Of a stretch of DNA of 64,000 bases, positions 21,109-57,363 are shown in pieces. Below the pieces are notes generated by a model. It made no database searches and was not told the DNA's origin. It saw nothing but the letters and a program-made list of their open reading frames with translations. A program made the position numbers and the translations under genes. Within the stretch, counting starts at the first letter, position 1. Every line of letters starts with the position of its first letter. This stretch comes from Xestospongia muta (lineage: Eukaryota; Porifera; Demospongiae; Haplosclerida; Petrosiidae): the NCBI GenBank assembly GCA_963693285.1, contig OY848918.1, forward strand, positions 1,743,501 to 1,807,500, read 5' to 3'.

Positions 21109-21213
21109 CTATTGATGTTGAGAGTGATGACAATCATATAGAAATGATAATTTCCTTTATAAAAAAGTTGAATGAGTTATCAATGTTAATAAAAATGAAG
21201 ATGTTAGACTTAC

Positions 21214-30640: not shown

Positions 30641-31170
30641 GATAGTACGCTGTAGTACTGTTACTATATATAACTGAACATGATAGTACACTGTAGTACT
30701 GTTATAATATATAACTGATCATGATAGTACGCTGTAGTACTGTTATAATATATAACTGAACATGATAGTACGCTGTAGTACTGTTACTATATATAACTTA
30801 ACATGATAGTACGCTGTAGTACTGTTATAATATATAACTGAACATGATAGTACGCTGTAGTACTGTTACTATATATAACTTAACATGATAGTACGCTGTA
30901 GTACTGTTATAATATATAACTGAACATGATAGTACGCTGTAGTACTGTTACTATATATAACTGAACATGATAGTACGCTGTAGTACTGTTATAATATATA
31001 ACTGATCATGATAGTACGCTGTAGTACTGTTATAATATATAACTGATCATGATAGTACGCTGTAGTACTGTTACTATATATAACTGAACATGATAGTACG
31101 CTGTAGTACTGTTACTATATATAACTGGTCACGATAGTACACTGTAGTACTGTTACTATATATAACTGAT
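30641..31170. repeat. 41-bp tandem array 2 (about 13 units)
   Basis: This is the same unit as array 1 but mostly with GTACGCTGTAGTAC and with alternating TTACTATATATAAC and TTATAATATATAAC forms, indicating separate amplification. About 290 bp of unrelated sequence separates the arrays. Confidence 0.9.
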
Positions 31171-31745: not shown

Positions 31746-34700
31746 TTATATGAACACATCTCTAAAAGCAACTTCAATTTGAGAGTGGTTGTCACCTAAA
31801 GAAACCATATAATATCAATGATTATTTTATTAAGTAACAAATTAAGTGGTTGTCCTTAATAGCATGTAACATAACATTTGGAACATGTAAGGTTTCACCA
31901 ATGTTATATCACTATCTCTTAGAACATGCTCTAGGTTAACAAGATGACTGTCACCTATACAAATCAAGTAATATCAATTGAAATGTTTTATTAAGTTGTA
32001 GTTTACTAGTTATAAAAGTACTACATCTAAGTTACTTATTAGTAATCAAAGTGAGATAAAGGACTAAAGGACTAAATGGTTATGGTAAGGAGTTATGCAG
32101 TAAGTAGACCAGTATTTAGTGATAAGGTTCTATTACGACATGTCAATTGTGAAAATGTCAACTTTGATAATTATTCATGAAGACATGATCAATGACACTG
32201 ATTTTGAATGGACTATGATTTCTCAAAGATTTTAGACTCACCACACTTGTAAAAGATGGTAAAAAGTGATACTTTACACTATAGCTATATAATGTGTTTT
32301 AATGACTAAATTACAAGGTGGGTGTGGCACCATAACAAAGAGGGTCCAAACCTGACTGGTCAGATTGGTTTGTTAAGTAGCTATGTAGTGTTTAAAGAAA
32401 TCAGGTGACTACTTCCAAGGCATCTGATTGGCTATAGGTCACATGGTCAGTAATAAAGTATTCTTAATATAACAATTAGTGTATAAATATTTCAAAATCA
32501 TAGCTCAATCCATTAGATATCTTGTGTCTTACCAAGTGGTCCATCTGACAAGCCAACAAGACCAACCATTGAGTCATATCCTATTAATAATAGTATTCTT
32601 ACCTTTGTCAGACATTATAAAAGGTAGACTATCTTTATCCACTTGGTACTGAGCAATGTTTTGTCCTGCCTCATCCTTCAAAGCAAAACCAAGGAACAGA
32701 ACGTCTTCATGGATGTGTTCCTGGAGACAAGAAAGGTTATAGCAACATACAAGGATACAAAATCACACACAACTACAACTACAACAATATGGTAGACATG
32801 ACATAGGACTGAACAGTTAATAATTAATAATAATGATTTGTAAACTAACCTGAGGTATTGTGTTAGACTTGAATACACTCATCACAGGGTCACATGACTT
32901 TTCAAACATAGGTTTATCTCTGTCAATTAGTTGACAATATGGCAAGACAACAGGAATAAAATATGATGAAGACATTTGATCACAAATCAAAGACAAAAAC
33001 GTTCCATATTTGAAAGCACATGACTTTTCAACAAGAATGAAATTTTCATGATATTCATGAAGTGTAGACAGCAACTGGACATTCTTCTGATGTAAACAGT
33101 CAATTTTCTTTTTGAACCTTTTTGTCTTGTCATAACAGCCAACAACTACAACTATTTTTCGTCCAATTTTGCTACCACCAACTATTTTCTCTCTCACTTT
33201 TACTCCTTTTCCATCAAATACATTGTAACATTGACACTGACCACAATTATTATAAATATAGTCTTTTTTGTGGAGATCATTTAAAGCTTCTTGATTTACA
33301 AAAGTTTTTGGCAGATGAGAAGTAAAATATCCTGTAAAAGAAAAACAAGATGTTTTAGTGTTAAACTAACATAGATAATAGAATAGTTAACAACAGAATT
33401 TCTGTTCATAACCAAATATGTGTTTTAGAGAATAAGAAATTGTTTGTGCATCAAACCAAACCTTGTACCATGCTATGCCTTAATTGACCAATGAGATCGC
33501 TCCATTTTAAGTTAAAAAATAACCTGTACATCTCCCATAGAGGTATACAAGTTTGTATACGCTCCTTTCTGAGGCTGTAATTTCCAACTTAGTATAGCAA
33601 TCAATTAGGCTGAAATTGTTACCTATGTTTCTATTTTCTATAAATCAGTAAATTCATTATAACAAACATTGTGAAATTTAGATTAGAAATAAAAAGGTCA
33701 TCAATATCAGAATTTTCACAACTCAAGGCTGTTTGTACATGGAACACAATGCTCCTGAAAATGTGAAAGAAGTAAATACTGAGATTTAAAGAATGAACTT
33801 GATGAATGCTGAGTGGGTTGGTTTCAAATTTCAGTGACACTCACATGAAGTTTTTCTCTAAGCAAAATAGCTGGCCTTGGAAGACCATTTTAGTGGTTCT
33901 ATTTTCCCATAGAGAGTCTAATACGAAGTTAAAACCTTTCCATGAGCTTAAAGACTATCATCGATTTTGGAGTATAGTCCTCTGTTTAGAAGTAACAACT
34001 ATTGCTACCAAGCAAAGTTGCAATATCTAGTAAATTGGTATGACACTCAGCCAAACAATTGTGTAACACTATAGCAAAATAGTATTGTCGTGCATTGTAA
34101 ACAAAAGTACAAATAAAAAGTACATTTCTTCCACTCCAAGTAAAATGGTAAGCTTTCCTTCGTTAACTAAAACTAACAACCAGATCTTGACATACATGTA
34201 TCCAAAGCAGCAGATACAATGGATCTAATATACCAAATGAAACAAAGCAATCTGATTGGTCAACATGGTACAAGTCTGTTATTAGCCTCAGTCTCATTAG
34301 CTACGTGATTTTTATACATCTCTGGCCTGCAACCATTGGTATATATATCTACCTCAACCTATAACCTATTTTGGAATATAATCAGTACACATTACATGCT
34401 CTCAATGAATACGACTCACTGTCCATACACAAAGTACACATTATATACTTTACCTTGTGCTAAATTTTGTCTATCTCCACTCAAAAAAGGAACTTTCCTA
34501 TTAGTCTTGTCATTATAGTAATGTGACTTATTACAAACACCCTAAAGGATATATGATGATGTAAAACATATTCCGTCAAATAAGAAATAATCATCTAAAA
34601 TGTTTACATAATATGTAATTAGATACTACAAGAGTTTGATGAGGAAGAGATGTAGCATATAATCATATTTTATAATTTATTATACTTGTATTCCAAGTAT

Positions 34701-37700
34701 AATAAGGTCATTGTTCAAACAATTAATATTTGGTGTGATTTAGAGGTAAATTTTCAATTACCAATTACAGCAGAACATTGCTTATCCGAACTTCATTCAA
34801 CCAAACACGTCGATTAACCGAATGTCTTGCTGGCTGACACACCCATCAGACACGCCTAATAATTATTGCATGTGTACGTGTCTAATCATAGCTAGTGAGA
34901 TTGCATCTTGTAGAAGAAAGTGACTAGTCTTGAGTATTCACGATAAACTGAAAATCTGAGAATTTGCCAAAAAAAGGAAGGACCTTATAAAGCATAGCTC
35001 ACGTGTATGAGATCGGTAAATCCACCGTTCACAATATTGTGAAGAACGATAAGAGAGTATACATATTCATGATTACTTTGCCAAATTGTGATATAAAAAG
35101 TGTTCAATTATATAATAATGTTTGTTACATGTTTGTTTTGTATTGTGGTAATCAGCACTTCAATTATCTGAACACCCTTTGGGCCCAACGTGTTTGGATA
35201 AGTGACATTCTACTGTACCATGTCAACCATATGAGCCAGGTACATTAAGTATGTCTGATATTCTTAGGATTGTCTTTTTTGCCAAATTATGACTTATAGA
35301 TATTAAAAATGGTTTACACAAGGCAACACAAGTGTACGTATATATATATATATAGACTATGTCTATATATATATACAGACTACTGTAATCAATATACATG
35401 CAGTAATGGTGAGGGTTACTTACACACATACTGACATTATTTGTCAAAACAATATCGCTAGTGTTCACAAAATGTTAATAAAATTTATTTAGAACTAAAA
35501 ATTAGAAATCAAATTCTCACAATTATTTTACATATTATTTTATCCTGAATTTAGTAATGGAATATGCAATGATACTATAGTCATTTTAAACAAATGACAA
35601 TAAATAATTCTGAAATTCACAAGTGGATAAAGCATACACACAATAGAGTAAACAAAATGATGACATTGAATTCAATACACTTATAAAATTATACTACATT
35701 ATATCACACTTACAAACTATTATATTGTAAAGGACACATTCAGATCACAAGTAATCACAGCAATGTTGATGTGGAAACAAAAAACAATAGATTAAACAAA
35801 ATGACAACATTGAGTTTAATTCACTTAGAAATTATACTATATTATATCACACTTACCACCTATTATATTGTAAAGAACACATTCAGATCACCAGCAATCA
35901 CAGCAATGTAAATGTGGAAACAAAGAATACAATAAAGTAAACAAAATGATAACGTTGAATTCAATACACTTAGAAATTATACTACATTATATCACACTTA
36001 CCTCCTATTATATTGTAAAGGACACATTCAGATCACAAGTAATCACAGCAATGTAAATGTGGAAACAAACAATACAATAGAGTAAACAAAATGACAACAT
36101 TGAGTTTAATACACTTAGAAATTATACTAGATTATATCACACTTACCTCCTATTATATTGTAAAGGACACATTCAGATCACCAGCAATCACAGCAATGTA
36201 AACGTGGAAACAAAGAATACAATAAAGTAAACAAAATGATAACGTTGAATTCAATACACTTAGAAATTATACTACATTATATCACACTTACCCACTATTA
36301 TATTGTAAAGGACACATTCAGAACACAAGTAATCACAGGAATGTAAATGTGGAAACAAAGAATACAATAAAGTAAACAAAATGATAACGTTGAATTCAAT
36401 ACACTTAGAAATTATACTACATTATATCACACTTACCTGCTATTACATTGTAAAGGACACATTCAGATCACAAGTAATCACAGCAATGTAAATGTGGAAA
36501 CAAAGAATACAATAGAGTAAACAAAATGACAACATTGAGTTTAATACACTTAGAAATTATACTACATTATATCACACTTACCGGCTATTATATTGTAAAG
36601 AACACATTCAGATCACAAGTAATCACAGCAATGTAAATGTGGAAACAAACAATACAATAGAGTAAACAAAATGACAACATTGAGTTTAATATACTTAGAA
36701 ATTATACTACATTATATCACACTTACCCACTATTATATTGTAAAGGACACATTCAGATCACAAGTAATCACAGCAATGTAAATGTGGAAACAAAGAATAC
36801 AATAAAGTAAACAAAATGATAACGTTGAATTCAATACACTTAGAAATTATACTACATTATATCACACTTACCTGCTATTACATTGTAAAGGACACATTCA
36901 GATCACAAGTAATCACAGCAATGTAAATGTGGAAACAAAGAATACAATAGAGTAAACAAAATGACAACATTGAGTTTAATACACTTAGAAATTATACTAC
37001 ATTATATCACACTTACCTCCTATTATATTGTAAAGGACACATTCAGATCACAAGTAATCACAGCAATGTAAATGTGGAAACAAACAATACAATAGAGTAA
37101 ACAAAATGACAACATTGAGTTTAATACACTTAGAAATTATACTGGATTATATCACACTTACCGGCTATTATATTGTAAAGAACACATTCAGATCACATGT
37201 AATCACAGCAATGTAAATGTGGAAACAAAGAATACAATAAAGTAAACAAAATGATAACATTGAATTCAATACACTTAGAAATTATACTACATTATATCAC
37301 ACTTACCCGCTATTATATTGTAAAGAACACATTCAGATCACAAGTAATCACAGTAATGTAAATGTGGAAACAAAGAATACAATAAAGTAAACATAATGAC
37401 AACATTGAGTTTAATACACTTAGAAATTATACTACATTATATCACACTTACCGGCTATTATATTGTAAAGAACACATTCAGATCACAAGTAATCACAGTA
37501 ATGTAAATGTGGAAACAAAGAATACAATAAAGTAAACATAATGACAACATTGAATTCAATACACTTAGAAATTATACTACATTATATCACACTTACCGGC
37601 TATTATATTGTAAAGAACACATTCAGATCACAAGTAATCACAGTAATGTAAATGTGGAAACAAAGAATACAATAAAGTAAACAAAATGATAACGTTGAAT

Positions 37701-40700
37701 TCAATACACTTAGAAATTATACTACATTATATCACACTTACCTCCTATTATATTGTAAAGGACACATTCAGATCACAAGTAATCACAGCAATGTAAATGT
37801 GGAAACAAACAATACAATAAAGTAAACAAAATTATAACATTGAATTCAATACACTTAGAAATTATACTACATTATATCACACTTACCGGCTATTATATTG
37901 TAAAGAACACATTCAGAACACAAGTAATCACAGCAATGTAAATGTGGAAACAAACAATACAATAGAGTAAACAAAATGACAACATTGAGTTTAATACACT
38001 TAGAAATTATACTGGATTATATCACACTTACCTCCTATTATATTGTAAAGAACACATTCAGATCACCAGCAATCACAGCAATGTAAACGTGGAAACAAAG
38101 AATACAATAAAGTAAACAAAATGATAACGTTGAATTCAATACACTTAGAAATTATACTACATTATATCACACTTACCCACTATTATATTGGAAAGGACAC
38201 ATTCAGATGACAAATAATTACAGCAATGTAAATGTGGAAACAAAGAATATAATAAAGTAAACAAAATGATAACATTGAATTCAATACACTTAGAAATTAT
38301 ACTACATTATATCACACTTACCGGCTATTATATTGTAAAGAACACATTCAGATCACAAGTAATCACAGTAATGTAAATGTGGAAACAAAGAATACAATAA
38401 ACTAACAAAATGATAACGTTGAATTCAATACACTTAGAAATTATACTACATTATATCACACTTACCCACTATTATATTGGAAAGGACACATTCAGATGAC
38501 AAGTAATTACAGCAATGTAAATGTGGAAACAAACAATACAATAGAGTAAACAAAATGACAACATTGAGTTTAATACACTTAGAAATTATACTGGATTATA
38601 TCACACTTACCTCCTATTATATTGTAAAGGACACATTCAGATCACAAGTAATCACAGCAATGTAAATGTGGAAACAAAGAATACAATAAAGTAAACAAAA
38701 TGATAACATTGAATTCAATACACTTAGAAATTATACTACATTATATCACACTTACCTCCTATTATATTGTAAAGGACACATTCAGATTACAAATAATCAC
38801 AGCAATGTAAATGTGGAAACAAAGAATACAATAAAGTAAACAAAATGACAACATTGAATTCAATACACTTAGAAATTATACTACATTATATCACACTTAC
38901 AAACTATTATATTGTAAAGGACACATTCAGATTACAAATAATCACAGCAATGTAAATATGGAAACAAAAAACAATAGAGTAAACAAAATGACAACATTGA
39001 ATTCAATATACTTAGAAATTATACTACATTATATCACACTTACCTGCTATTACATTGTAAAGGACACATTCAGATCACAAGTAATCACAGCAATGTAAAT
39101 GTGGAAACAAAGAATACAATAGAGTAAACAAAATGACAACATTGAGTTTAATACACTTAGAAATTATACTACATTATATCACACTTACCTGCTATTACAT
39201 TGTAAAGGACACATTCAGATCACAAGTAATCATAGCAATGTAAATGTGGAAACAAAAAACAATAGAGTAAACAAAATGACAACATTGAATTCAATACATT
39301 TAGAAATTATACTACATTATATCACACTTACAAACTATTATATTGCAAAAGACAAATTCAGATCACAAGTAATCACAGCAATGTAAATGTGGAAACAGAA
39401 AAAAACAATAGAGTAAACAAAATGACAACATTAAATTCAATACATTTAGAAATTATACTACATTATATCACACTTACCCACTATTATATTGTAAAGGACA
39501 CATTCAGATCACAAATAATCACAGCAATGTAAATGTGGAAACAGAAAAAAACAACAGAGTAAACAAAATTATAACATTGAATTCAATACACTTAGAAATT
39601 ATACTACATTATATCACACTTACCTCCTATTATATTGTAAAGAACACATTCAGAACACAAGTAATCACAGCAATGTAAACGTGGAAACAAAGAATACAAT
39701 AAAGTAAACAAAATGATAACGTTGAATTCAATACACTTAGAAATTATACTACATTATATCACACTTACCCACTATTATATTGTAAAGAACACATTCAGAT
39801 CACAAGTAATTACAGCAATGTAAATGTGGAAACAAACAATACAATAAAGTAAACAAAATTATAACATTGAATTCAATACACTTAGAAATTATACTACATT
39901 ATATCACACTTACCGGCTATTATATTGTAAAGAACACATTCAGATGACAAGTAATCACAGCAATGTAAATGTGGAAACAAACAATACAATAGAGTAAACA
40001 AAATGACAACATTGAGTTTAATACACTTAGAAATTATACTGGATTATATCACACTTACCTCCTATTATATTGTAAAGAACACATTCAGATCACCAGCAAT
40101 CACAGCAATGTAAACGTGGAAACAAAGAATACAATAAAGTAAACAAAATGATAACATTGAATTCAATACACTTAGAAATTATACTACATTATATCACACT
40201 TACCCACTATTATATTGTAAAGAACACATTCAGATCACAAGTAATTACAGCAATGTAAATGTGGAAACAAACAATACAATAAAGTAAACAAAATTATAAC
40301 ATTGAATTCAATACACTTAGAAATTATACTACATTATATCACACTTACCGGCTATTATATTGTAAAGAACACATTCAGATGACAAGTAATCACAGCAATG
40401 TAAATGTGGAAACAAACAATACAATAGAGTAAACAAAATGACAACATTGAGTTTAATACACTTAGAAATTATACTGGATTATATCACACTTACCTCCTAT
40501 TATATTGTAAAGAACACATTCAGATCACCAGCAATCACAGCAATGTAAACGTGGAAACAAAGAATACAATAAAGTAAACAAAATGATAACATTGAATTCA
40601 ATACACTTAGAAATTATACTACATTATATCACACTTACCTCCTATTATATTGTAAAGAACACATTCAGATCACAAGTAATCACAGCAATGGAAATGTGGA

Positions 40701-43700
40701 AACAAAAAACAATAGAGTAAATAAAATGACAACATTGAATTCAATACATTTAGAAATTATACTACATTATATCACACTTACAAACTATTATATTGCAAAA
40801 GACAAATTCAGATCACAAGTGATCACAGCAATGTAAATGTGGAAACAGAAAAAAACAATAGAGTAAACAAAATGACAACATTAAATTCAATACATTTAGA
40901 AATTATACTACATTATATCACACTTACCGACTATTATATTGTAAAGGACACATTCAGATCACAAATAATCACAGCAATGTAAATGTGGAAACAGAAAAAA
41001 ACAACAGAGTAAACAAAATGACAACATTGAATTCAATATATTTAGAAATTATACTACATTATATCACACTTACCGACTATTATATTGTAAATGACACATT
41101 CAGATCACAAATAATCACAGCAATGTAAATGTGGAAACAGAAAAAAACAACAGAGTAAACAAAATGACAACATTGAATTCAATATATTTAGAAATTATAC
41201 TACATTATATCACACTTACCGACTATTATATTGTAAAGGACACAATTTGATGACAAATAATCACAGCAATGTAAATGTGGAAACAGAAAAAAAAACAATA
41301 GAGTAAACAAAATGACAACATTGAATTCAATACACTTAGAAATTATACTACATTATATCACACTTACAAACTATTATATTGTAAAGAACACATTCAGATC
41401 ACAAGTTATGACAGCAATGTAAACATGGAAACAAAAAAACAATAGAGTAAACGAAATGACAACATTGAATTCAATACATTTAGAAATTATACTACATTAT
41501 ATCACACTTACAAACTATTATATTGCAAAAGACAAATTCAGATCACAAGTGATCACAGCAATGTAAATGTGGAAACAGAAAAAAACAATAGAGTAAACAA
41601 AATGACAACATTAAATTCAATACATTTAGAAATTATACTACATTATATCACACTTACCGACTATTATATTGTAAAGGACACATTCAGATCACAAATAATC
41701 ACAGCAATGTAAATGTGGAAACAGAAAAAAACAACAGAGTAAACAAAATGACAACATTGAATTCAATATATTTAGAAATTATACTACATTATATCACACT
41801 TACCGACTATTATATTGTAAAGGACACATTCAGATCACAAATAATCACAGCAATGTAAATGTGGAAACAGAAAAAAACAACAGAGTAAACAAAATGACAA
41901 CATTGAATTCAATATATTTAGAAATTATACTACATTATATCACACTTACCGACTATTATATTGTAAAGGACACAATTGGATGACAAATAATCACAGCAAT
42001 GTAAATGTGGAAACAGAAAAAAACAACAGAGTAAACAAAATGACAACATTGAATTCAATACACTTAGAAATTATACTACATTATATCACACTTACCCGCT
42101 ATTATATTGTAAAGGACACATTCAGATTACAAGTAATCACAGCAATGTAAATGTGGAAACAGAAAAAAACAACAGAGTAAACAAAATGACAACATTGAAT
42201 TCAATATATTTAGAAATTATACTACATTATATCACACTTACCGACTATTATATTGTAAAGGACACATTCAGATCACAAATAATCACAGCAATGTAAATGT
42301 GGAAACAGAAAAAAACAACAGAGTAAACAAAATGACAACATTGAATTCAATATATTTAGAAATTATACTACATTATATCACACTTACCGACTATTATATT
42401 GTAAAGGACAAATTCGGATCACAAGTAATCACAGCAATGTAAAAGTGGAAACAGAAAAAAACAATAGAGTAAACAAAATGACAACATTGAATTCAATACA
42501 TTTAGAAATTATACTACATTATATCACACTTACCGACTATTATATTGTAAAGGACACATTCAGATCACAAATAATCACAGCAATGTAAATGTGGAAACAG
42601 AAAAAAACAACGAAGTAAACAAAATGACAACATTGAATTCAATATATTTAGAAATTATACTACATTATATGACACTTACAACCTATTATATTGTAAAGGA
42701 CATTCGGATGACAAATAATCACAGCAATGTAAATGTGGAAACAAAAAATAATAGAGTAAACAAAATGACAACATTAAATTCAATACATTTAGAAATTATA
42801 CTACATTATATCACACTTACAAACTATTATATTGTAAAGGACACAATCGGATGACAAATAATCACAGCAATGTAAATGTGGAAACAGAAAAAACAGAAGA
42901 GTAAACAAAATAACAACATTGAATTCAATACATTTAGAAATTATACTACATTATATCACACTTACCGACTATTATATTGTAAAGAACACATTCAGATCAC
43001 AAGTTATGACAGCAATGTAAACATGGAAACAAAAAAACAATAGAGTAAACGAAATGACAACATTGAATTCAATACATTTAGAAATTATACTACATTATAT
43101 CACACTTACAAACTATTAGATTATAAAGGACACATTTGAATGACAAATAATCATAGCAATGTAAATGTGGAAACAAAAAACAATAGAGTAAACAAAATGA
43201 TAACATTGAATTCAATACACTTAGAAATTATACTACATTATATCACACTTACCTCCTATTATATTGTAAAGGACACATTCAGATTACAAGCAGTCAAGGC
43301 AATGAAAATGTGGAAACAGAAAAAAAACAATAGAGTAAACAAAATGACAACATGAATTCAATACATTTAGAAATTATACTACATTGTATCACACTTACCG
43401 ACTGTTATATTGTAAATGACACATTCAGATGACAAAAAATCATAGCAATGTAAATGTGAAAACAAAAAACAATAGAGTAAATAAAATGACAACATTAAAT
43501 TCAATACATTTAGAAATTATACTACATTATATCACACTTACAACCTATTATATTGTAAAGGACATTCGGATGACAAATAATCACAGCAATGTAAATGTGG
43601 AAACAAAAAATAATAGAGTAAACAAAATGACAACATTAAATTCAATACATTTAGAAATTATACTACATTATATCACACTTACAAACTATTATATTGTAAA

Positions 43701-46700
43701 GGACACAATCGAATGACAAATAATCACAGCAATGTAAATGTGGAAACAGAAAAAACAGAAGAGTAAACAAATAACAACATTGAATTCAATACATTTAGAA
43801 ATTATACTACATTATATCACACTTACCGACTATTATATTGTAAAGAACACATTCAGATCACAAGTAATCACAGCAATGTAAATGTGGAAACAGAAAAAAA
43901 ACAATAGAGTAAACAAATGACAACATGAATTCAATACATTTAGAAATTATACTACATTATATCACACTTACAAACTATTATATTGTAAAGAACACATTCA
44001 GATCACAAGTTATGACAGCAATGTAAACATGGAAACAAAAAAACAATAGAGTAAACGAAATGACAACATTGAATTCAATACATTTAGAAATTATACTATG
44101 TTATATCACACTTACAAACTATTAGATTATAAAGGACACATTTGAATGACAAATAATCACAGCAATGTAAATGTGAAAACATAAAATACAATAGAGTAAA
44201 CAAAATGACATCATTGAATTTAATACACTTAGAAATTATACTGCATTATATCACACTTACCACCTATTACATTGTAAAGGACACATTCAGATCACAAGCA
44301 ATCACAGCAATGTAAATGTGGAAACAAAGAATACAATAAAGTAAACAAAATGATAACATTGAATTCAATACTCTTAGTCATTATACTACATTATATCACA
44401 CTTACCACCTATTATATTGTAAAGGACACAATCAGATGACAAGTAATCACAGCAATGTAAATGTGGAAACAAAAAAAAACAATAGAGTAAACAAAATGAC
44501 AACATTGAATTCAATACACTTAGAAATTATACTACATTATATCACACTTACCCGCTATTATATTGTAAAGGACACATTCAGATTACAAGTAATCACAGCA
44601 ATGTAAATGTGGAAACAAAAAATAATGGAGTAAACAAAATGACAACATTGAATTGAATACATTTAGAAATTATACTACATTGTATCACACTTACCGACTG
44701 TTATATTGTAAATGACACATTCAGATGACAAAAAATCATAGCAATGTAAATGTGGAAACAAAAAACAATAGAGTAAATAAAATGACAACATTGAATTTAA
44801 TACTCCTAGAAATTATGTCATCATTTATTATAATTTATTGTGTTTATATAAATCTCAAAAAAAGGATACAGTACTTAGGACTACTACTTCATTGTAAATA
44901 TAGTACAATTGTATTGTATAAACTTGTTAGTTAAAGTCAGGTACAGTAGTCTTATATCATTATAATGTCTATATTATCTCTTCTCTAATAGTTTATGTCT
45001 TCTCTAATTAACTCACACAACTTAAAGAAAAAACATGCTCATTTTCATAATCTTATTTACCTCAGTAACAACATCAATATTAGCTCCATGGTTAACCAAT
45101 AATTCAACAATGTCTGTATGTCCTTCATAACTTGCATAATGAAGAGCTGTCCATCCTCTCTATTGTAATAATAAACAAATTATTAACTCTCAAATTAGAC
45201 CACTAACACACTATATAAACTAATAGTGTTGATGTCCAATAACAATTAGTAGTAAAATAGATTAATATGTAATGTTATTAAAATAAACGTTTTCCTAACA
45301 TTATTATATTTAATTTATTTGACACATCATTGATAAACAATAATACAACCTTTACATTAAAATAGTACCACAACTTATAGCTGTATTTTAAGGAAAAAAG
45401 TGTCACATTTTATATTATACAGACTATTAACTCTTAACTTAGACTACTAACACACTATATAAACTAATCCTCCATACAGTCACAGACAATTGCTTGGCCA
45501 AATGATAAAGTTAGAAAAGCCAACAAAGTATGTTAAGAAAATGTGGACCTTATCAGCTGTACAGTTCAGACATACCACTTAAAATTAGCAAATATACTAG
45601 TCATCATGCAGCCTTGCATTTCTTTTTTAGAATTATATGATAGCCTCAAAAAATAATACCGTACTTTTCTATAGTGCTCATTGTGTTGCACTTTGCAAAA
45701 TTTAGGTGTTAATAAATTTTCATACATGCCTCTTGTGTCCGAAATTTTTTCTAACATGTTAATTTTTTACATGAAATTTTTGCAACACAAAAAGTTGCTC
45801 AATCTATGGCATATCTATTACTAATAAATATTTAGTTTTTGAGCAGATCTTTTAACACTAATTTAGCTGCCTTGTGTAATCTAAGGGATTGGTAAACAAG
45901 ACACAAAAAAATTGTTAGGATGTAGACCCTATCTTATTAAGTCAACAGTATCCCATGACAATATAACATGTAGCTCTTTATGTTATTGCAACTATCAACT
46001 AACATCATGTCATGTCATGTGACTCTATATTACTATAATAAATAACATTATTTCTGTCAGACAATTATTACATCTGATGAAGTATATAGCTAGTTCACAA
46101 TCTGTACATTAAACACAAACAAAACTGACTTTTAAAATGTGGTTTATGAGAAATAAAAACCCATCTATGTACTTAACAACTACATTCGGGTTATCAAATA
46201 TAATGCTTGCCAAATGGTATGCCTCCATGACATGGTCAGCCTCAACAAATGTCTACTTGTACAATATCTTTGCTGGGTAAGGTAATACAATGACACTAGC
46301 TAGCAAAACTATTTCTTCATTACTTAAATAGTTATAAAACAAAGTGATAAATATACTTACAATGGAACTTCTAATAACAGACATTTGTAATAGTAGACAT
46401 TCACTACAATAGACAATAACTTTGGAACTTGACCTTTTTGTAGACAGCACTAGAATTGTGTCCTCTTAAATGTGGACAGCTCATTTTAGGACAATAACTT
46501 TTCTGACTCCAGAAATTACTAGCACATGAAGTTTTGCCTCTTATAACAGACAGTGGGTGTGTCTAGTGTACTTCACATGGGCTTAGTTTATACAATGAAT
46601 GGCTTTGCAATAATTTCTCTTTCTCAAGTACTTTGTTTAAGCTTGAATAGAGTTGTTAATATATTGTTACAACCTCTAAAGTTAAGTATACCTCTCTATA

Positions 46701-46941
46701 GAGGATATTAACACTTGTCCCAATGGCATTCATTGCAGACAATTTTAGACTAAACACAGTATTGGTTATTAATAAAGTAACATTTTCAGATTTACTGCCT
46801 CATTTATAGAACATATATTCTCTTGTATAATAAATTAAATTAACTTACCATATCAGTATAATTTACATTGGCTCCTCTTGAGAGAGCATATTGTACTCCA
46901 AACAAGTCTCCTTTCTTAACAGACTCAATTAGACTATCATT
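31746..46941 (-). CDS. Paralogue D': ankyrin-repeat protein with unrecognised C-terminal domain
   Basis: Exons 46849-46941, 45061-45159, 34454-34541, 32850-33331, 32603-32720, 32533-32580 and 31746-31795 join in phase (0-0-0-1-0-1-1). The first two encode ankyrin repeats (SVKKGDLFGVQYALSRGANV; GWTALHYASYEGHTDIVELL). The rest parallel paralogue D (KIVVVVGCYDKTKRFKKK, DVLFLGFALKDEAGQNIAQY). The last exon stops after GDNHSQIEVAFRDVFI, about 33 residues earlier than in D. The intron 34542-45060 is 10.5 kb and is mostly satellite; the intron upstream of 46941 also opens into satellite. The 5' end was not found, though a possible 54-nt phase-0 exon lies at 53048-53101. It is presumably a cytoplasmic ankyrin adaptor; the function is unknown. 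Confidence 0.6.
33805..33920 (+). repeat. Dispersed repeat, copy 2
   Basis: Partner of 23845-23955, here inside the intron of D' between 33332 and 34453. It explains part of the extra length of that intron relative to paralogue D. Confidence 0.6.
34768..35215 (+). mobile_element. Tigger/pogo-type DNA transposon relic, 448 bp
   Basis: The ends are CAGCAGAACATTGCTTATCC and the complement of CAGTAGAATGTCACTTATCC, both next to TA, fitting the TA target duplication of Tc1/mariner-pogo elements. Inside, a plus-strand frame reads YEIGKSTVHNIVKNDKR (about 35006-35058), the helix-turn-helix of the CENP-B/Tigger transposase N-terminus. The rest of the transposase is deleted and upstream frames have stops. 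Confidence 0.85.
35340..35385. repeat. TA-rich palindrome
   Basis: TATATATATATATATAGAC-TAT-GTCTATATATATATA is self-complementary. It probably grew by microsatellite slippage. Confidence 0.7.
35645..44815 (-). repeat. 145-bp satellite, block 2 (about 63 units)
   Basis: Head-to-tail units spaced 144-146 bp, with ATCACACTTAC from about 35704 to 44689, fill most of the 10.5-kb intron of the ankyrin paralogue D'. On minus each unit reads ...AATAG, three variable bases, GTAAGTGTGATATAATG. Plus-strand triplets seen include AAA, CAC, CTC, CCA, CTG, CGG, CCG, CGA and AAC. Higher-order copies occur, for example three-unit blocks near 39720-40155 and 40156-40590. Short open frames on plus (VNKMTTLNSIHLEIILHYIT) are unit translations, not genes. 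Confidence 0.95.
44816..45060. other. Intron flank of the ankyrin exon
   Basis: Non-satellite AT-rich sequence between block 2 and the ankyrin exon. Nothing else is recognised. Confidence 0.5.
45160..46848. other. Intron between the two ankyrin exons of D'
   Basis: About 1.7 kb without satellite. Only short frames are present (45566-45757, 46253-46450), and they have no motif or splice context. Confidence 0.5.
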
Positions 46942-47007
46942 CTATGGTAAAACAAAAAATTAATTGTATCATTTAAAATAATGCATAATCTAATGCCAAC
47001 ACATTTT

Positions 47008-50000
47008 GATATTATACTACATTATATTTTACTTACCTGCTATTATATTGTAAAGAACACATTCAGATCACAAGTAATCACAGCAATGTAAATGTAGAAA
47101 CAAAAAACAATAGAGTAAACAAAATGATAACATTGAATACAATACACTTAAAATTATACTACATTATATCAGACTTACCAACTATTATATTGTAAAGAAC
47201 ATATTCAGATCACAAGTAATCACAGCAATGTAAATGTGAAAACATAAAATACAATAGAGTAAACAAAATGACAACATTGAATACAATACACGTATATTAT
47301 ACTGCATTATATCACACTTACCAACTATTATATTGTAAAGGACACATTCAGATTACAAGTAATCACAGCAATGTAAATGTGGAAACAAAAAACAATAGAG
47401 TAAACAAAATGATAACATTGAATACAATACACTTAAAATTATACTACATTATATCAGACTTACCAACTATTATATTGTAAAGAACATATTCAGATCACAA
47501 GTAATCACAGCAATGTAAATGTGAAAACATAAAATACAATAGAGTAAACAAAATGACAACATTGATTCAATACACTTAAAATTATACTACATTAGATCAC
47601 ACTTACCGACTATTATATTGTAAAGGACACATTCAGATCACAAGTAATCACAGCAATGTAAATGTGGAAACAAAGAGTACATTAGAGTAAACCAAATGAC
47701 AACATTGAATTCAATACACTTATAAAATTATACTACATTATATCACACTTACCTCCTATTATATTGTAAAGGACACATTCAGATTACAAATAATCACAGC
47801 AATGTAAATGTGGAAACAAAGAATACAATAGAGTAAACAAAATGATAATATTAAATTAAATACACTTAGAAATTATACTACATTATATCACACTTACCAA
47901 CTTTTGTATTGTAAAGGACACATTCAGATTACAAAAAATCACAGCAATGTAAATATGGAAACAAAAAAAAAACAATAGAGTAAACATAATGACAACATTT
48001 AATTCAATACACTTAAAATTATACTACATTAGATCACACTTACCGACTATTATATTGTAAAGGACACATTCAGATCACAAGTAATCACAGCAATGGAAAT
48101 GTGAAAATTGATAAAAACAATAGAGTAAACAAAATGACAACATTGAATTCAATACACTTAGAAATTACACTACATTATATCACACTTACCACCTATTATA
48201 TTGTAAATGACACATTCAGATCACAAGTAATCACAGCAATGGAAATGTGAAAACAAAAAAAACAATATAGTAAACAAAATGACAACATTGAATTCAATAC
48301 ACTTAGAAATTATACTACATCATATCACACTTACCGACTATTATATTGTAAAGGACACATTCAGATTACAAGTAATCACAGCAATGTAAATGTGAAAATA
48401 GAAAAAAACAATAGAGTAAACAAAATGACAACATTCAATTCAATACACTTAGAAATTATACTACATTATATCACACTTACCACCTATTATATTGTAAAGG
48501 ACACATTCAGATTACAAGTAATCACAGCAATGTAAATGTGAAAATAGAAAAAAACAATAGAGTAAACAAAATGACAACATTCAATTCAATACACTTAGAA
48601 ATTACACTACATTATATCACACTTACCACCTATTATATTGTAAATGACACATTCAGATGACAAGTAATCACAGCAATGGAAATGTGAAAACAAAAAAAAA
48701 CAATATAGTAAACAAAATGACAACATTAAATTCAATACACTTAGAAATTACACTACATTATATCACACTTACCACCTATTATATTGTAAATGACACATTC
48801 AGATCACAAGTAATCACAGCAATGGAAATGTGAAAACAAAAAAAACAATATAGTAAACAAAATGACAACATTGAATTCAATACACTTAGAAATTATACTA
48901 CATCATATCACACTTACCCGCTATTATATTGTAAAGGACACATTCAGATTACAAGTAATCACAGCAATGTAAATGTGAAAATAGAAAAAAACAATAGAGT
49001 AAACAAAATGACAACATTCAATTCAATACACTTAGAAATTATACTACATCATATCACACTTACAAACTATTATATTGTAAAGGACACATTCAGATCACAA
49101 GTAATCACAGCAATGTAATTGTGAAAACAAAAAATACAATAGAGTAAACAAAATGACAACATTGAATACAATACACGTATATTATACTGCATTATATCAC
49201 ACTTACCTCCTATTATATTGTAAATGACACATTCAGATCACAAGTAATCACAGCAATGGAAATGTGAAAACAAAAAAAACAATATAGTAAACAAGATGAC
49301 AACATTGAATTCAATACACTTAGAAATTATACTACATCATATCACACTTACCGACTATTATATTGTAAAGGACACATTCAGAGTACAAGTAATCACAGCA
49401 ATGTAAATGTGAAAATAGAAAAAAACAATAGAGTAAACAAAATGACAACATTCAATTCAATACACTTAGAAATTATACAACATCATATCACACTTACAAA
49501 CTATTATATTGTAAAGGACACATTCAGATCACAAGTAATCACAGCAATGTAATTGTGAAAACAAAAAATACAATAGAGTAAACAAAATGACAACATTGAA
49601 TACAATACATGTATATTATACTGCATTATATCACACTTACCTCCTATTATATTGTAAAGGACACATTCAGTTTACAAGTAATCACAGCAATGTAAATGTG
49701 AAAATAGAAAAAACAATAGAGTAAACAAAATGACAACATTCAATTCAATACACTTAGAAATTATACTACATTATATCACACTTACAATCTATTATATTGT
49801 AAATGACACATTCAGATCACAAGTAATCACAGCAATGTAATTGTGGAAACAAAAAAATAATAGAGTAAACAAAATGACAACATTGAATACAATACACGTA
49901 AATTATACTACATTATATCACACTTACCACCTATTATATTGTTAAGGACACATTCAGATCACAAGCAATCACAGCAATGTAAATGTGGAAACAAAGAATA

Positions 50001-51775
50001 CAATAGAGTAAACAAAATGACAACATTGAATACAATACACTTAGAAATTATACTACATCATATCACACTTACCGACTATTATATTGTAAAGGACACATTC
50101 AGATTACAAGTAATCACAGCAATGTAAATGTGAAAATAGAAAAAAACAATAGAGTAAACAAAATGACAACATTGAATACAATACACGTATATTATACTGC
50201 ATTATATCACACTTACCTCCTATTATATTGTAAATGACACATTCAGATCACAAGTAATCACAGCAATGGAAATGTGAAAACAAAAAAAACAATATAGTAA
50301 ACAAAATGACAACATTGAATTCAATACACTTAGAAATTATACTACATCATATCACACTTACCGACTATTATATTGTAAAGGACACATTCAGATTACAAGT
50401 AATCACAGCAATGTAAATGTGAAAATAGAAAAAAACAATAGAGTAAACAAAATGACAACATTCAATTCAATACACTTAGAAATTATACTACATCATATGA
50501 CACTTACAAACTATTATATTGTAAAGGACACATTCAGATCACAAGTAATCACAGCAATGTAATTGTGAAAACAAAAAATACAATAGAGTAAACAAAATGA
50601 CAACATTGAATACAATACATGTATATTATACTGCATTATATCACACTTACCTCCTATTATATTGTAAATGACACATTCAGATCACAAGTAATCACAGCAA
50701 TGTAATTGTGGAAACAAAAAAATAATAGAGTAAACAAAATGACAACATTGAATACAATACACGTAAATTATACTACATTATATCACACTTACCACCTATT
50801 ATATTGTTAAGGACACATTCAGATCACAAGCAATCACAGCAATGTAAATGTGGAAACAAAGAATACAATAGAGTAAACAAAATGACAACATTGAATACAA
50901 TACACTTAGAAATTATACTACATCATATCACACTTACCGACTATTATATTGTAAAGGACACATTCAGATTACAAGTAATCACAGCAATGTAAATGTGAAA
51001 ATAGAAAAAAACAATAGAGTAAACAAAATGACAACATTCAATTCAATACACTTAGAAATTATACTACATCATATCACACTTACCGACTATTATATTGTAA
51101 AGGACACATTCAGATCACAAGTAATCACAGCAATGTAATTGTGAAAACAAAAAATACAATAGAGTAAACAAAATGACAACATTGAATACAATACACGTAT
51201 ATTATATTGCATTATATCACACTTACCGACTATTATATTGTAAAGGACACATTCAGATTACAAGTAATCACAGCATGAAAACAAAAAAACAATAGAGTAA
51301 ACAGTATGACAACATTGAATTCAATACACTTAAAATTATACTACATTATATTACACTTACCACCTATTATATTGTAAAGGACACATTCAGATTACAAGCA
51401 ATCATAGCAATGTAAATGTTGAAACAAAGAATACAATAGAGTAAACAAAATGACAACATTGAGTTTAATATACTTAGAAATTATACAACATTATATCACA
51501 CTTACCGGCTATTATATTGTAAACAACACATTCAGATCACAAGTAATCACAGCAATGTAAATGTAAAAACAAAGAATACAATAGAGTAAACAAAATGACA
51601 ACATTGAATTTAATACACTTAGAAATTATGCTACATTATATCACACTTACTCTCTATTATATTGTAAAGGACACATTCAGATTACAAGTAATCACAGCAA
51701 TGGAAATGTGGAAACAAAAAAACAATAGTGTAAACAAAATGATAACGTTAAATTCAATAGAAATTATGCTTTGTT
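47008..51775 (-). repeat. 145-bp satellite, block 3 (about 33 units)
   Basis: Units continue from about 47025 to 51650 upstream of the first ankyrin exon. Triplets (plus) include CTG, CAA, CGA, CTC, CAC, CCG, AAA, AAT, CGG and TCT. A higher-order copy about 865 bp (six units) long is evident: 49939-50127 and 50804-50992 translate identically. Some units have short deletions in the ATGTGGAAAC region, whereas the AATAG-NNN-GTAAGT core is kept. Confidence 0.95.
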
Positions 51776-52881
51776 GTTAAAAGTGTGAAATATAAATTAC
51801 TTGAAGTATTATACAAGGCAACACATACACACGTGCATGTATATAGACTATTGTTATGCGTATTATGTCATTTAGTAAGTTTTATGAATATTCATATGTT
51901 AATGTAAGCTGGACACACAATAGTTCAAAACAGTCTTAAAATATCTCACAACTTAAGCAAGAAAAGCAAGCATAAGACCAGGTTATCTATATAAACAAAC
52001 GTTTTTGTCCTGAGATGTTGGATGTGACCAAATGAATAGTTTAATAGTGAATATGGCCTCTCTTTCGTCACCAAGTTGTCATGTTTCAAAGCAATATTTG
52101 ATAACAAGCAAATAAAAACATCCTCAATAAATACTGCGTGCCTGATAAAAGGGTTGAGTGAAATTTGGGACAATTACATAACTGCTGTTTCTTTAAGTAA
52201 TAATTCAGTTCAGCTTTGCCTTGCAAAACATTATAAAATGAAAGGCACTAAAGTACTGAACCAAAGTACTGTGCCAAACCTCACTTCAGTTTCTAAGTTA
52301 TTTATAAATGCTATGCCAGCTTAGACCCAGCTATGATGTTGCTAGGTAGCATTGCAAGAAAATTTAACATTCTAGAAGGTGTGGTCACATTTATCAATAT
52401 TTCATATACAAAATTTATTGTAACTTGAAGATGAAGCCTTCTTTGGAAACGTCCCATAGTACAAATATAAATCAATATATTATCTATTAGTAGCGGTTTT
52501 TACAGTGCTTTGAGACGTTTCCTGAATGCGTCACTTCGCTCCAAGTCCATGTAAAATCTTGAAAACACTTTTCAGAACTTTTCTAACGATTGCTTCGACC
52601 AACAGCCTTCAGTATTGCTGATGCGTATTCCTCTAAGATTCTCTACAACATGCTAATAAATCTCCACTTTAAGGTTTTTACTTTTCGAGAAATGGCACCT
52701 TGACATCTGCAGCCTGAAAATTCTTTTGTGAGTTTTAAGCTTTCATTTTCCTTGACAATGTTCTTGATACTATGGTTGTAAAGTCCACACGTTTTTCTAT
52801 TTGTTGCTAAACATTTAAAGCTGCTAACGCTTTGCTTGCCAAGTTATAGCAGTTCAAAAACAATCCCCAGTAACAGGCAGT

Positions 52882-52918
<37 letters not shown>
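52882..52918. repeat. (CA)n microsatellite
   Basis: About 18 CA dinucleotides. The plus-strand frame starting here (poly Thr-His) is an artefact of the repeat. Confidence 0.95.
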
Positions 52919-52923
<5 letters not shown>

Positions 52924-53047
52924 TGACAGACTACAGTACCTTCACTATGCGCCCATGCACAGTGAGGTTAAATATATACACTTAGAATATAATCATACAC
53001 ATCAGTATACTATTAATCTGTGTGTTGATCATGAAGTAGTCACTTAC

Positions 53048-53101
53048 TTTGTAAACAAAATCATTATTGTGTCCTCTCCAAAGATTGGTGTTATCACTTC
53101 T
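53048..53101 (-). other. Possible 54-nt exon of the ankyrin gene D'
   Basis: The segment is bounded by CTTGTTAAG on the acceptor side and GTAAGTGAC on the donor side and is open in phase 0 (SDNTNLWRGHNNDFVYK). The phase fits the next D' exon at 46941. There is no similarity support. Confidence 0.25.
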
Positions 53102-53339
53102 CTTAACAAGATAATATTGTGTTATCTATATAATTCAATCAATAGTAAAAAAGAATATTAATGTTTAGTTAACTCATTTATTCATCATTGACTTAGTTAC
53201 TATAGCAATGTATTTTCCATAAATGTACTGTCTATTATCTCACTGTATTACATTTTAATTGGTCACTTCCCAACTACACTATCATTTAGATATAAATATT
53301 TTCTCCTACTAATAAAAAATTCAAAAAATAGCTATTTTA

Positions 53340-56090
53340 TTACAAATTCAATACACTTAGAAATTATACTACATTATATCACACTTACCAACTATTATAT
53401 TGTAAAGGACACATTCACATCACAAGTAATCACAACAATGTAAATGTGAAAACAAAGAATACAATAGAGTAAACAAAATGACAACATTGAATTCAATACA
53501 TTTAAAATTATACTACATTATATCACACTTACAAACTATTATATTGTAAAGGACACGTTCACATCACAAGTAATCACAGTAATGGAAATGTGAAAACAAA
53601 GAATACAATAGAGTAAACAAAATGACAACATTGAATTCAATACATTTAAAATTATACTACATTATATCACACTTACCGACTATTATATTGTAAAGGACAC
53701 GTTCACATCACAAGTAATCACAGCAATGTAGATGTGGAAACAGAAAAAACAATAGAGTTAACAAAATGACGACATTGAATTCAATTCACTTAAAATTATA
53801 CTACATTATATAACACTTACCAACTATTATATTGTAAAAAACACATTCATATCACAAATAATCATAGCAATGTAAATGTGGAAACAGAAAAAACAATAGA
53901 GTTAACAAAATGACAACATTGAATTTAATACACTTAAAATTATACTACATTATATCACACTTACCACCTATTACATTGTAAAGGACACAATCAAATCACA
54001 AGTAATCACAGCGTGGAAACAAAAAAACAATAGAGTAAACAAAATGACAACATTGAATTCAATACACTTAGAAATTATACTACATTATATCACACTTACA
54101 AACTATTATATTGTAAAGGACACATTCAGATCACAAGTAATCACAGCAATGTAAATGTGGAAACAAAAAAACAATAGAGTAAACAAAATGACGACATTGA
54201 ATTCAATACACTTAGAAATTATACTACATTATATCACACTTACAAACTATTATATTGTAAAGGACACATTCAGATCACAAGTAATCAAAGCAATGTAAAT
54301 GTGGAAACAAAAAAACAATAGAGTAAACAAAATGACGACATTGAATTCAATACACTTAGACATTATACTACATTATATCACACTTACCAACTATTATATT
54401 GTAAAGGACACATTCAGATCACAAGTAATCACAGCAATGTAAATGTGGAAACAGAAAAAACAATAGAGTTAACAAAATGACAAGATTGAATTTAATACAC
54501 TTAAAATTATACTACATTATATCACACTCACCACCTATTACATTGTAAAGGACACAATCAAATCACAAGTAATCACAGCATGGAAACAAAAAAACAATAG
54601 AGTAAACAAAATGACAACATTGAATTCAATACACTTAGAAATTATACTACATTATATCACACTTACCCGCTATTATATTGTAAAGGACACATTCACATCA
54701 CAAATAATCACAGCAATGTAAATGTGGAAACAGAAAAAAAATATAGTAAGCAAAATGACAACATTGAATTCAATACACTTAGAAATTATACTACATTATA
54801 TCACACTTACCAACTATTATATTGTAAAGGACACATTCACATCACAAATAATCACAGCAATGTAAATGTGAAAACAGAAAAAAAAATAGAGTAAGCAAAA
54901 TGCCAACATTGAATTCAATACACTTAAAATTATACTACATTATATCACACTTACCACCTATTACATTGTAAAGGACATAATCAGATCAAAGTAATCACAG
55001 CAATGTAAATGTGAAAACAAAGAATACAATAGAGTAAACAAAATGACGACATTGAATTCAATACACTTAGAAATTATACTACATTATATCACACTTACAA
55101 ACTATTATATTGTAAAGGACACAAGTAATCACAGCAATGTAAATGTGGAAACAAAAAAACAATAGAGTAAACAAAATGACGACATTGAATTCAATACACT
55201 TAGAAATTATACTACGTTATATCACACTTACAAACTATTATATTGTAAAGGACACATTCAGATCACAAGTAATCACAGCAATGTAAATGTGGAAACAGAA
55301 AAAACAATAGAGTAAACAAAATGACGACATTGAATTCAATACACTTAGAAATTATACTACATTATATCACACTTACCAACTATTATATTGTAAAGGACAC
55401 ATTCAGATCACAAGTAATCACAGCAATGTAAATGTGGAAACAGAAAAACAATAGAGTTAACAAAATGACAAGATTGAATTTAATACACTTAAAATTATAC
55501 TACATTATATCACACTCACCACCTATTACATTGTAAAGGACACAATCAAATCACAAGTAATCACAGCATGGAAACAAAAAAACAATAGAGTAAACAAAAT
55601 GACAACATTGAATTCAATACACTTAGAAATTATACTACATTATATCACACTCACCACCTATTACATTGTAAAGGACACAATCAAATCACAAGTAATCACA
55701 GCATGGAAACAAAAAAACAATAGAGTAAACAAAATGACAACATTGAATTCAATACACTTAGAAATTATACTACATTATATCACACTTACCAACTATTATA
55801 TTGTAAAGGACACATTCACATCACAAATAATCACAGCAATGTAAATGTGGAAACAGAAAAAAAAATAGAGTAAGCAAAATGACAACATTGAATTCAATAC
55901 ACTTAAAATTATACTACATTATATCACACTTACCCGCTATTACATTGTAAAGGACATAATCAGATCAAAGTAATCACAGCAATGTAAATGTCGAAACAGA
56001 AAAAACAATAGAGTTAACAAAATGACAATATTGAATTCAATACACTTAAAATTATACTACATTATATCACACTTACAATTTATTACATTA
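53340..56090 (-). repeat. 145-bp satellite, block 4 (about 20 units)
   Basis: Units run from about 53375 to 56075 with triplets (plus) CAA, AAA, CGA, CAC, CCG and AAT. Variants here share TATTACATTG instead of TATTATATTG and deletions that remove AATGTAAATG, so the block has its own subfamily. The last unit decays to CTTACAATTTATTACATTATAC. Confidence 0.95.
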
Positions 56091-57363
56091 TACATAATAT
56101 AATTTATTATGTGTAATATTCAGTGGAATACTACACATAATAAATTATGTAAGGTCTAACAGATTGTATATGATATTGGACTAGTTTGCTTTCAACACTA
56201 ATCATCAATTCTTATGTTTGTTATGTTTGTTACAATTGTATCATCATGTCTGGACATTTTGTACAGGTATAAGTAGCCTAACCTTATTTTAATGGAAGAA
56301 AAAATTAAACAATCAAACAATTGTCAAAAACTGTAAAAATTGTACTTATTAACCAGTGTGATATAATCTTCCACTAAATTAGTTACCTCATACTAAACAT
56401 ATTCATATACACTTATATAAAGTAATGTCAGTACATGTATCTTGAGTAATTGATAATATGAGGAAGTACAGACATTAAGATAAATACATTGTGAGCCACA
56501 CTCTTATAAGATTTTATCAAGGCAATGTATAGTGATTACATACCACATACCATATTAAGGTATATCATATTATTACTGATGTGTGGCCACTATACAGCAT
56601 CAGGCAATCCTATTTTTTAATTTGTAACTCTTTTCACTTCATGGAATTTAATAAACAATGCAAAACAATTTACTATTTTTGATGTCTCCACCATTAAATG
56701 ATAGATAAGTATATACAATTGTAACTTCGAGTCCAATATCAAAATTTTAGCAACATAATTCATTGAATGGGGACAATCATATCTCTTCAAAGACTACAAA
56801 TGTCTGTGAAAGAGTTTAGTTTGATTTAAATATCCATTAATACACTAATAATAAGATATTATTCACTATGTGAAGAAGTCTTCACATATATATATTGTCA
56901 GTCAATACATAATGGTTCCACTTCTATAACACAAAAACCTCATATAACTCCACTAATTTTATATATTATATTTGCTCAAATTAAAATGAGTAAAACAGAA
57001 AAAGATGTGACAAACATTATTAAGCTGGTACATTTATCATAATACATGGTCATCTTCATAGAACATTAGCTCAATTTAAATTTTTCCCATCAATGGACAT
57101 CTTTATTGAACAATTATAAAGTTTGTGAGCTGTCATTAAATACAGGTGATATTGAGTATCTTACTAATATATTAAGTCATTGTAAGTTATTTAAATGATA
57201 GCCTTTATCCCATAATTTAGCTATTAGTGTATGAACAAACCAAACTTACAACAAGAAATGTCAACATTTGACAAAAGTTCCAGGAAGTACAAGTAACCCT
57301 GACTTTGGTTTTAACTAAAATATATCAATTAAATTATATCTCTTTAACAATATTTTAATTTAC
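56091..57363. other. 3' flank of receptor gene F
   Basis: It begins with a hairpin (56092-56150) at the satellite edge. A possible terminal exon of gene F follows an AG at about 57315 on minus in the right phase (VKTKVRVTCTSWNF, ending in TAG/TAA-rich sequence), but support is weak. No other gene is recognised. Confidence 0.4.
56092..56150. repeat. Hairpin at the edge of satellite block 4
   Basis: AATTTATTATGTGTA at 56101-56115 pairs exactly with TACACATAATAAATT at 56132-56146, with further pairing outside. Confidence 0.85.

Follow-up and report, generated by a model that had tools for sequence, protein, structure and literature searches.

A satellite with a variable triplet between conserved splice-site bases in introns of sponge ankyrin-repeat genes: candidate one-codon exons

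Introduction

The stretch of DNA analysed here, referred to as the window, comprises 64,000 nucleotides of the sponge Xestospongia muta (assembly GCA_963693285.1, contig OY848918.1, positions 1,743,501 to 1,807,500). It holds an ankyrin-type gene and a satellite of ~145 bp in four blocks, all on the minus strand, which is the strand of that gene (Table 1). The core of the unit reads CAATATAATAG-NNN-GTAAGTGTGATATAATG, so that three bases (NNN) stand between an acceptor-like AG and a donor-like GT. An earlier interpretation made from the letters of the window (hereafter the sequence-only reading) had proposed that each unit could act as an optional one-codon micro-exon, with recursive-splicing ratchet points or a mutable or recombining core as alternatives. 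We have followed up this proposal in the window and in the genome, and consider it probable that each unit is an optional one-codon exon, which would make an array a menu of residues.

The satellite and its host gene

With up to three mismatches allowed, the core matched the window 121 times, always on the minus strand, and never in 100 shuffles. A laxer core yielded 122 units in blocks of 6, 63, 33 and 20, the number at which the sequence-only reading had roughly arrived; AG-NNN-GT is intact in 121 of these, and the 14 triplets listed by that reading are the ones seen. The unit period is mostly 145 bp, the 20 commonest lengths running from 125 to 148 among 487 sampled units. Across the genome (158 Mb in 28 contigs) there are 3,404 + 4,962 cores with no more than three mismatches and 906 + 2,207 = 3,113 exact short cores. 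Two subfamilies of unit can be distinguished by locus, one with mostly A/T at the third triplet base (~135-bp units) and one with mostly G/T (~145-bp units), C being rare at that base in both. The arrays at loci L009, L011, L019, L020 and L021 have a final core at the 3' end of a common degenerate form, roughly AATATA(A/G)TAATTGTTAAGTGTTCTAG, in which the acceptor AG is missing and the donor weakened. An array at L030:1-4001, unlike the gene-borne ones, consists almost entirely of a single triplet (TTG, 15/16) and adjoins an inverted pair of similar open reading frames (ORFs). The core gave no matches in viral contigs, and no known RNA families were matched in window 28000-57000.

Read along the minus strand, the window runs block 4, exon ITQ, block 3, exon NDS, exon A, block 2, exon GVC and the C-terminal exon. 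Exons ITQ, NDS, A and GVC are each preceded by AG, are followed by a GT donor and start in phase 0, so that they are phase-compatible with a three-base exon, whose length keeps the frame. At the other loci, ankyrin exons were located by means of a profile built up from the exons at array loci. Two types recur, A (xGWTALHYASxxGHTKIVEVLVNHNADLNIVTK) and B (EGSTPVMLAAKKGHKDVVLILTQKGANLDLVNR), and where both are visible the usual order is A upstream, then the array, then B downstream (L009, L017, L019, L020/L021, L026, and L035 with its neighbours), with the exception of two small arrays between B exons in L020. The intron that holds block 2 is ~10.5 kb long, and the A-B introns with arrays in L019 measure only ~1.3-2.4 kb.

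A and B exons joined directly match solved ankyrin structures, among them designed ankyrin repeat proteins (DARPins), gaplessly in all but one of the alignments shown; the ankyrin repeat is therefore complete without an extra codon. The position of the join is presumably the hairpin between ankyrin repeats, given the known fold. The first residue of exon A is itself variable, with 7 codons among 14 exons. Two B exons, L020:1712-1807 and 2437-2532 (minus strand), have a donor that reads GTAAGTGTGATCTGAATG, that is, satellite-like sequence serving as an ordinary exon donor.

A variable triplet in a uniform frame

The triplet is far more diverse than the remainder of the unit. When units were chosen by the core (487 units), its three positions carried 1.77, 1.95 and 1.60 bits, and the next most variable site 1.47 bits. 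Because a core-based choice could flatter the flanks, units were then chosen by a profile of the unit middle, without using the core. In this sample, 665 junctions from the window and 27 of the 28 genome loci searched, the triplet reached 1.79, 1.94 and 1.66 bits against 0.08-0.16 bits at the four splice bases, with A and G of the acceptor kept in 98.6% and 98.0% of junctions and G and T of the donor in 99.1% and 99.1%. The hypervariable triplet of the sequence-only reading is thereby borne out. Its stronger statement, that variation is confined to three bases, holds in so far as the triplet is the most variable part and AG and GT are among the best kept, but variation also extends beyond the triplet to sites that separate the subfamilies, which reach 1.47 bits, below all three triplet positions.

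The spacing between the splice bases is equally regular. Seven bases (AG-NNN-GT) align without a gap in 662 of the 665 junctions; the other three, judged by eye, likewise admit a reading of AG, three bases and GT. Of the gapless junctions, 32 are broken, and the remaining 630 keep both AG and GT and show 38 different triplets. Spacers of 4-16 bases between exact flanks occurred nowhere in the genome, a search that did not extend to spacers of 0-2 bases.

Closely related units differ in the triplet in a particular manner. Among 623 units, 70 pairs are identical over the 144 flanking bases, and the triplet differs in 6 of them, in 4 by two bases; in non-identical pairs with less than 2% flank difference it differs in 66 of 173 (by one base in 19, two in 44 and three in 3). 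Codons seem to be swapped whole, as expected from recombination that shuffles old codon alleles among homogenised flanks. We infer that diversifying selection, or an unknown directed mutation process, lies behind the diversity of the triplet. The use of triplet diversity as a marker of functional arrays was also considered and dropped, its correlation with the proportion of broken cores, over 31 arrays with six or more units, being Spearman -0.29 (p = 0.11).

A frame of this kind might also arise if the units were tandem insertions of an introner or transposon that makes a 3-base target-site duplication. The unit does read GT...AG like an intron, with three variable bases framing it, and many arrays stop shortly past a core at their 3' end. 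However, the 5' ends of arrays are scattered over unit positions ~2 to 113, neighbouring units often have different triplets, the third base is mostly A/T or mostly G/T according to locus, and the single copy in L024, admittedly one copy only, is flanked by TTT and by TTA. Such an origin is very improbable.

Splice bases and the host gene

Compared with like bases of the same unit, AG and GT stand at or near the top in conservation. Among the 22 consensus-G positions of 657 units, the donor G ranks first (99.2%) and the acceptor G second (98.2%), with a median of 85.4%; the donor T is the best kept of 64 T positions and the acceptor A the second best of 35 A positions. The splice bases look selected.

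Of particular interest is the relation of this conservation to the neighbouring gene. A total of 811 junctions in 298,028 fetched bases were divided according to the presence or absence of an ankyrin exon (E up to 1e-6) in their stretch, neighbouring loci being merged. In the 12 stretches with ankyrin exons, the exon is on the strand of the array in 12/12 and on the opposite strand in none; 6 of 566 gapless cores are broken, and mismatches amount to 0.26% at AG and GT versus 8.8% at the other junction positions. In the 14 stretches without a recognised ankyrin exon, 51 of 200 cores are broken, and the mismatch at AG and GT (7.0%) approaches that elsewhere in the junction (9.6%). Two stretches, L016 and L033, were set apart by hand, with exon A just beyond the stretch edge; none of their 41 cores is broken (0% splice-base mismatch). 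The per-locus mismatch ratio differs between the two classes (Mann-Whitney p = 1.2e-5; 14 loci versus 10, each with four junctions or more), and the divergence of the flanks shows no difference between them (p = 0.50). An unplanned check came from L035, where 0 of 19 cores were broken with no host exon in view; its neighbours then showed A upstream and B downstream of the array. An earlier count over 46 clusters, in which 14 of 17 clusters with a nearby exon A agreed in strand, 3 were mixed or discordant and 29 had no such exon among the 150 exon matches scored, drew on a subset of 88 listed sites that was typed by hand, two of the sites being approximate, and on one exon position added from the window; it is superseded by the comparison of stretches. 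As far as sequence comparison goes, then, splice-base conservation is shown to be tied to the host gene. The satellite departs in this from what is expected of an ordinary satellite, since its constraint depends on a neighbouring gene and its strand is not indifferent.

These results bear on three further explanations. In the first, already named by the sequence-only reading, the satellite would be non-coding and its core prone to mutate or recombine: a local break or mutation process would vary the triplet, and the arrays would travel with duplicating ankyrin genes. It draws on the two-base triplet differences between identical flanks, on the joint duplication of arrays and exons, and on the high triplet diversity that is also found in several arrays without a detected host gene. 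In its pure form it leaves unexplained why AG and GT are kept beside ankyrin exons only, flank divergence being similar, and why so few triplets end in C (14/3,113) or are stops (1/3,113); we regard it as unlikely. In the second, the units would be splicing decoys, sites kept to slow or regulate the removal of the intron, with the 3-base exon never included. This would account for the conservation of the splice bases and for the strand, and exons of three bases are hard to recognise. The variability of the triplet and the rarity of stops would then have no explanation, and a real 3-base exon exists in RPS24 (PMC12686416). The decoy is accordingly quite improbable.

The third explanation is the stepwise (recursive) removal of a long intron, the units being splice ratchets and the residues incidental, with many codons retained or the products discarded. 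Strong acceptor-donor pairs do stand in rows within the ~10.5-kb intron, and their splice bases are kept in genes. Yet this proposal gives no reason for a triplet that changes much faster than the rest of the unit, nor for arrays in A-B introns as short as those of L019, and with three bases between AG and GT every step would leave a codon. Because of this spacing, the residue-free ratchet points of the sequence-only reading are unlikely, and recursive removal in the broader sense has in our view only a small probability.

The triplet as a codon

The use of both AG and GT would leave three bases in the RNA, and for this reason the conservation of both speaks for a codon. The sequence-only reading had found no stop among the triplets of the window, and there is indeed none among the 122 units. 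Genome-wide, the 3,113 exact cores contain TAA 0, TAG 1 and TGA 0 times, compared with 1,160 for the sense triplets TTG, TCG and TGG and 67 for TCA and TTA. The sole TAG sits in L029, a locus with 4 of its 7 cores broken. When triplet types were shuffled within loci, 10.7 stops (sd 2.3) were expected, and 0 of 5,000 shuffles gave as few as the one seen.

At the third position of the triplet, C occurs in 14 of 3,113. This fits the last base before a donor and therefore favours splicing over coding as its cause. The third base was also compared by codon box (two-fold boxes 250 R/119 Y, four-fold boxes 207 R/54 Y, where R is purine and Y pyrimidine); the direction is the expected one, CTT (23) is contrary, the counts are not independent, and the comparison is not used.

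Several observations weigh against the one-codon exon, or against the force of the evidence for it. The deficit of stops is not specific to stops: CTA, GTA, TTA, TAT, TGT, GCT and GGT are likewise absent from a sample of 630 junctions, so that the deficit can serve as support and is no proof of coding. On this point the proposal of the sequence-only reading falls short of proof, while the gene-tied AG and GT, the strand agreement in 12/12, the phase of the exons and the scarcity of stops lend it strong support. Since duplication links units with one another, and loci too, the counts overstate independence; the broken cores, 51 and 6, reduce to 23 and 6 distinct locus-type combinations. Some of the 14 exon-less stretches may lie in genes, because the stretches are short: in L023 (2 of 12 cores broken) an ankyrin-like exon seems, by eye, to follow the array directly, L018 (one junction) has an NDS exon on the same strand, and L024 (one junction) has receptor segments. 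Triplet diversity shows no difference between arrays with and without ankyrin exons (p = 0.59), and since several gene-less arrays are equally diverse, the diversity may be inherited or mutational. The phase-0 flanks claimed by the sequence-only reading stand for ITQ, NDS, A and GVC but not upstream of block 4, where the candidate exon, the tail-like segment of Table 1, ends in a stop or a phase-2 donor and has no established phase-0 donor.

Two further points on this side concern transcripts and their products. A simple test of block 2 revealed no RNA pairing by which a single unit would have to be chosen; the longest complementarity to the unit was 14 bases in the upstream intron (reached in 8 of 100 shuffles) and 13 downstream (36 of 60). 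The nearest annotated protein, P0126, a partial record labelled 'Gigantopelta aegis', joins the same exon types without an extra residue. Very small exons are often missed in annotation (PMC8831610), which bears on the lack of that residue. No annotated protein with an inserted residue was found among the best 120 of 303 matches and all 50 matches within length limits, of which nine and three sequences were inspected. The records P0121 and P0126, both labelled Gigantopelta aegis, match the array ankyrin exons at 61-78% identity, which may reflect contamination or a shared gene type.

Other features of the window

Beyond the ankyrin exons, the host gene may be of a receptor type, with upstream Ig/FN3-like segments, ankyrin repeats and a C-terminal part without a Pfam family, in a putative single transcript. 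The Ig/FN3-like pieces of the window gave no match when tested against Pfam. The contig also carries a paralogue, in which Ig-like, FN3-like, tail, ITQ-like, NDS and GVC pieces recur, and the relatives P0242 and P0243 of the C-terminal exon have, by eye, a P-loop-like N-terminal part. The window also holds further repeats and ORFs, listed with the other coordinates in Table 1.

Table 1. Coordinates of the satellite blocks, host-gene exons and other features in the window.
Feature	Position	Strand	Remarks
Block 1	28208..28976	-	6 units; upstream of second GVC and C-terminal exon copies
Block 2	35640..44816	-	63 cores, all AG-NNN-GT intact; 9 triplets, 8 amino acids; in intron between exon A (45061-45159) and exon GVC (34455-34541)
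Block 2, first (5'-most) triplet, TCG	44695..44697	-	example of a candidate one-codon exon
Block 2, last triplet, TTT	35714..35716	-
Block 3	47011..51759	-	33 cores, all intact; 10 triplets, 9 amino acids; between exons ITQ and NDS
Block 4	53345..56092	-	20 cores, 19 intact; 5 triplets, 5 amino acids in intact ones; upstream of exon ITQ
Exon ITQ (ITQYYLVKRSDNTNLWRGHNNDFVYK)	53048..53125	-	AG..GT, phase 0/0; borders inferred from sequence
Exon NDS	46849..46941	-	AG..GT, phase 0/0; ankyrin repeats begin
Exon A (RGWTALHYASYEGHTDIVELLVNHGANIDVVTE)	45061..45159	-	AG..GT, phase 0/0; one ankyrin repeat
Exon GVC	34455..34541	-	from phase 0; extends one base more to phase-1 donor; downstream of block 2
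C-terminal exon of host gene	32850..33332	-	no Pfam family
Second copies of GVC (27939-28025) and C-terminal (26861-27295) exons	26861..28025	-	downstream of block 1
Tail-like segment	57482..57871	-	upstream of block 4; common to paralogue in L025-L028; may belong to same transcript
Ig/FN3-like receptor segments	59180..60818	-	upstream, same strand; fn3 PF00041 precomputed for several relatives
Further Ig/FN3-like copies (window 7146-22269)	7430-7146, 17649-17374, 16923-16627, 21499-21230, 22269-21973	-
Second tandem repeat	29897-31170		41-bp unit, 31 copies; between both C-terminal exon copies
50-bp repeat	27779-27923		2.9 copies, 94% match; adjoins second GVC exon
ORF with ZSWIM1/3 RNaseH-like domain	3029-3520	-	PF21056, E 8.2e-16
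ORF with weak PNMA match	61482-61997	+	under cut-off

Proposed mechanism and comparison with known systems

The reading that we favour, the optional one-codon exon, would operate as follows. Each unit would consist of a 142-base intron and a 3-base exon, in rows that in the window comprise 6 to 63 units inside introns of the ankyrin-repeat gene, on the coding strand. To the spliceosome a unit would offer its AG as acceptor and, three bases on, its GTAAGT as donor, and use of the pair would add one codon between the ordinary exons. Because the units share nearly the same splice signals, a row could work as a menu of alternative codons, and those of the A-B introns would serve the tip of an ankyrin hairpin; in the window gene the menus at blocks 4, 3 and 2 would offer 5, 9 and 8 amino acids. 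Unequal exchange and conversion would homogenise the signals and shuffle codons between units, and selection for different residues would maintain the codon diversity. Inclusion of the codons in mRNA, their number per transcript, the choice among units and any benefit are what we infer from this arrangement.

The mechanism can be carried a step further. Given the near-identical splice signals, each transcript of the ankyrin receptor-like gene might draw a codon, or a small number of them, by chance from rows that hold dozens, in several introns at once, so that single cells would make different residues at the binding fingertips of their ankyrin repeats; concerted evolution would keep the splicing frame uniform while selection kept the codons diverse. 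Such a lottery is a tentative and rather doubtful extension of the favoured reading. If true, it would be an animal repertoire-making system that needs no gene rearrangement. Even inclusion of the codons by itself would mean that one intron offers as many as 63 choices at a single residue, and that satellite DNA, usually taken as inert, can be a coding repertoire. The arrays would also provide a testable case in which concerted evolution of the flanks and diversification of the codon act on neighbouring bases.

Parts of this arrangement are familiar from other systems. In known recursive splice sites, or ratchet points, AG and GT abut with nothing between them; the units resemble them in the closeness of acceptor and donor within a long intron, and differ in the three bases between AG and GT (662/665 junctions). 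DARPins are turned into binders by randomising residues close to the tip of the hairpin. That is laboratory design, whereas here splicing would insert an extra residue at the hairpin tip. In Dscam genes, tandem near-duplicate exons lie between constant ones, one being chosen of many, and these exons are much longer than three bases. The satellite is similar in that it consists of tandem near-duplicate candidate exons between ordinary exons; its exons would be of three bases, and no docking pairing was found in the simple test of block 2. Many isoforms arise from combined alternatively spliced exons in genes of the Dscam1 type (PMC5465998).

Together with these exon arrays, the nearest known parallel is found in the micro-exon genes (MEGs) of schistosomes, in which the exons are different short exons within one gene. 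The sponge units, as 3-base exons, would share their shortness, but here one intron holds up to 63 near-identical satellite units, candidate exons with the codon as their main difference. A study of MEGs gives exons of 3-81 bp with verified protein products, and relates the variation of the proteins to gene duplication and alternative splicing (PMC10526429). In RPS24, a 3-bp exon between ordinary exons is truly included (PMC12686416); there it is one exon in one gene, and here there would be thousands, set in arrays and differing in content. A satellite of one-codon exons is described in none of the papers listed in the literature searched, whose coverage leaves most subscription papers outside. 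Tandem alternative exons, micro-exons and satellites are thus known singly, and a satellite built of single-codon exons appears in none of the accounts searched. If the proposal is true, the arrays would be an extreme case of alternative exons, in how many there are and in how small, would reveal the way in which three bases can be recognised as an exon, and would offer a route to receptor diversity.

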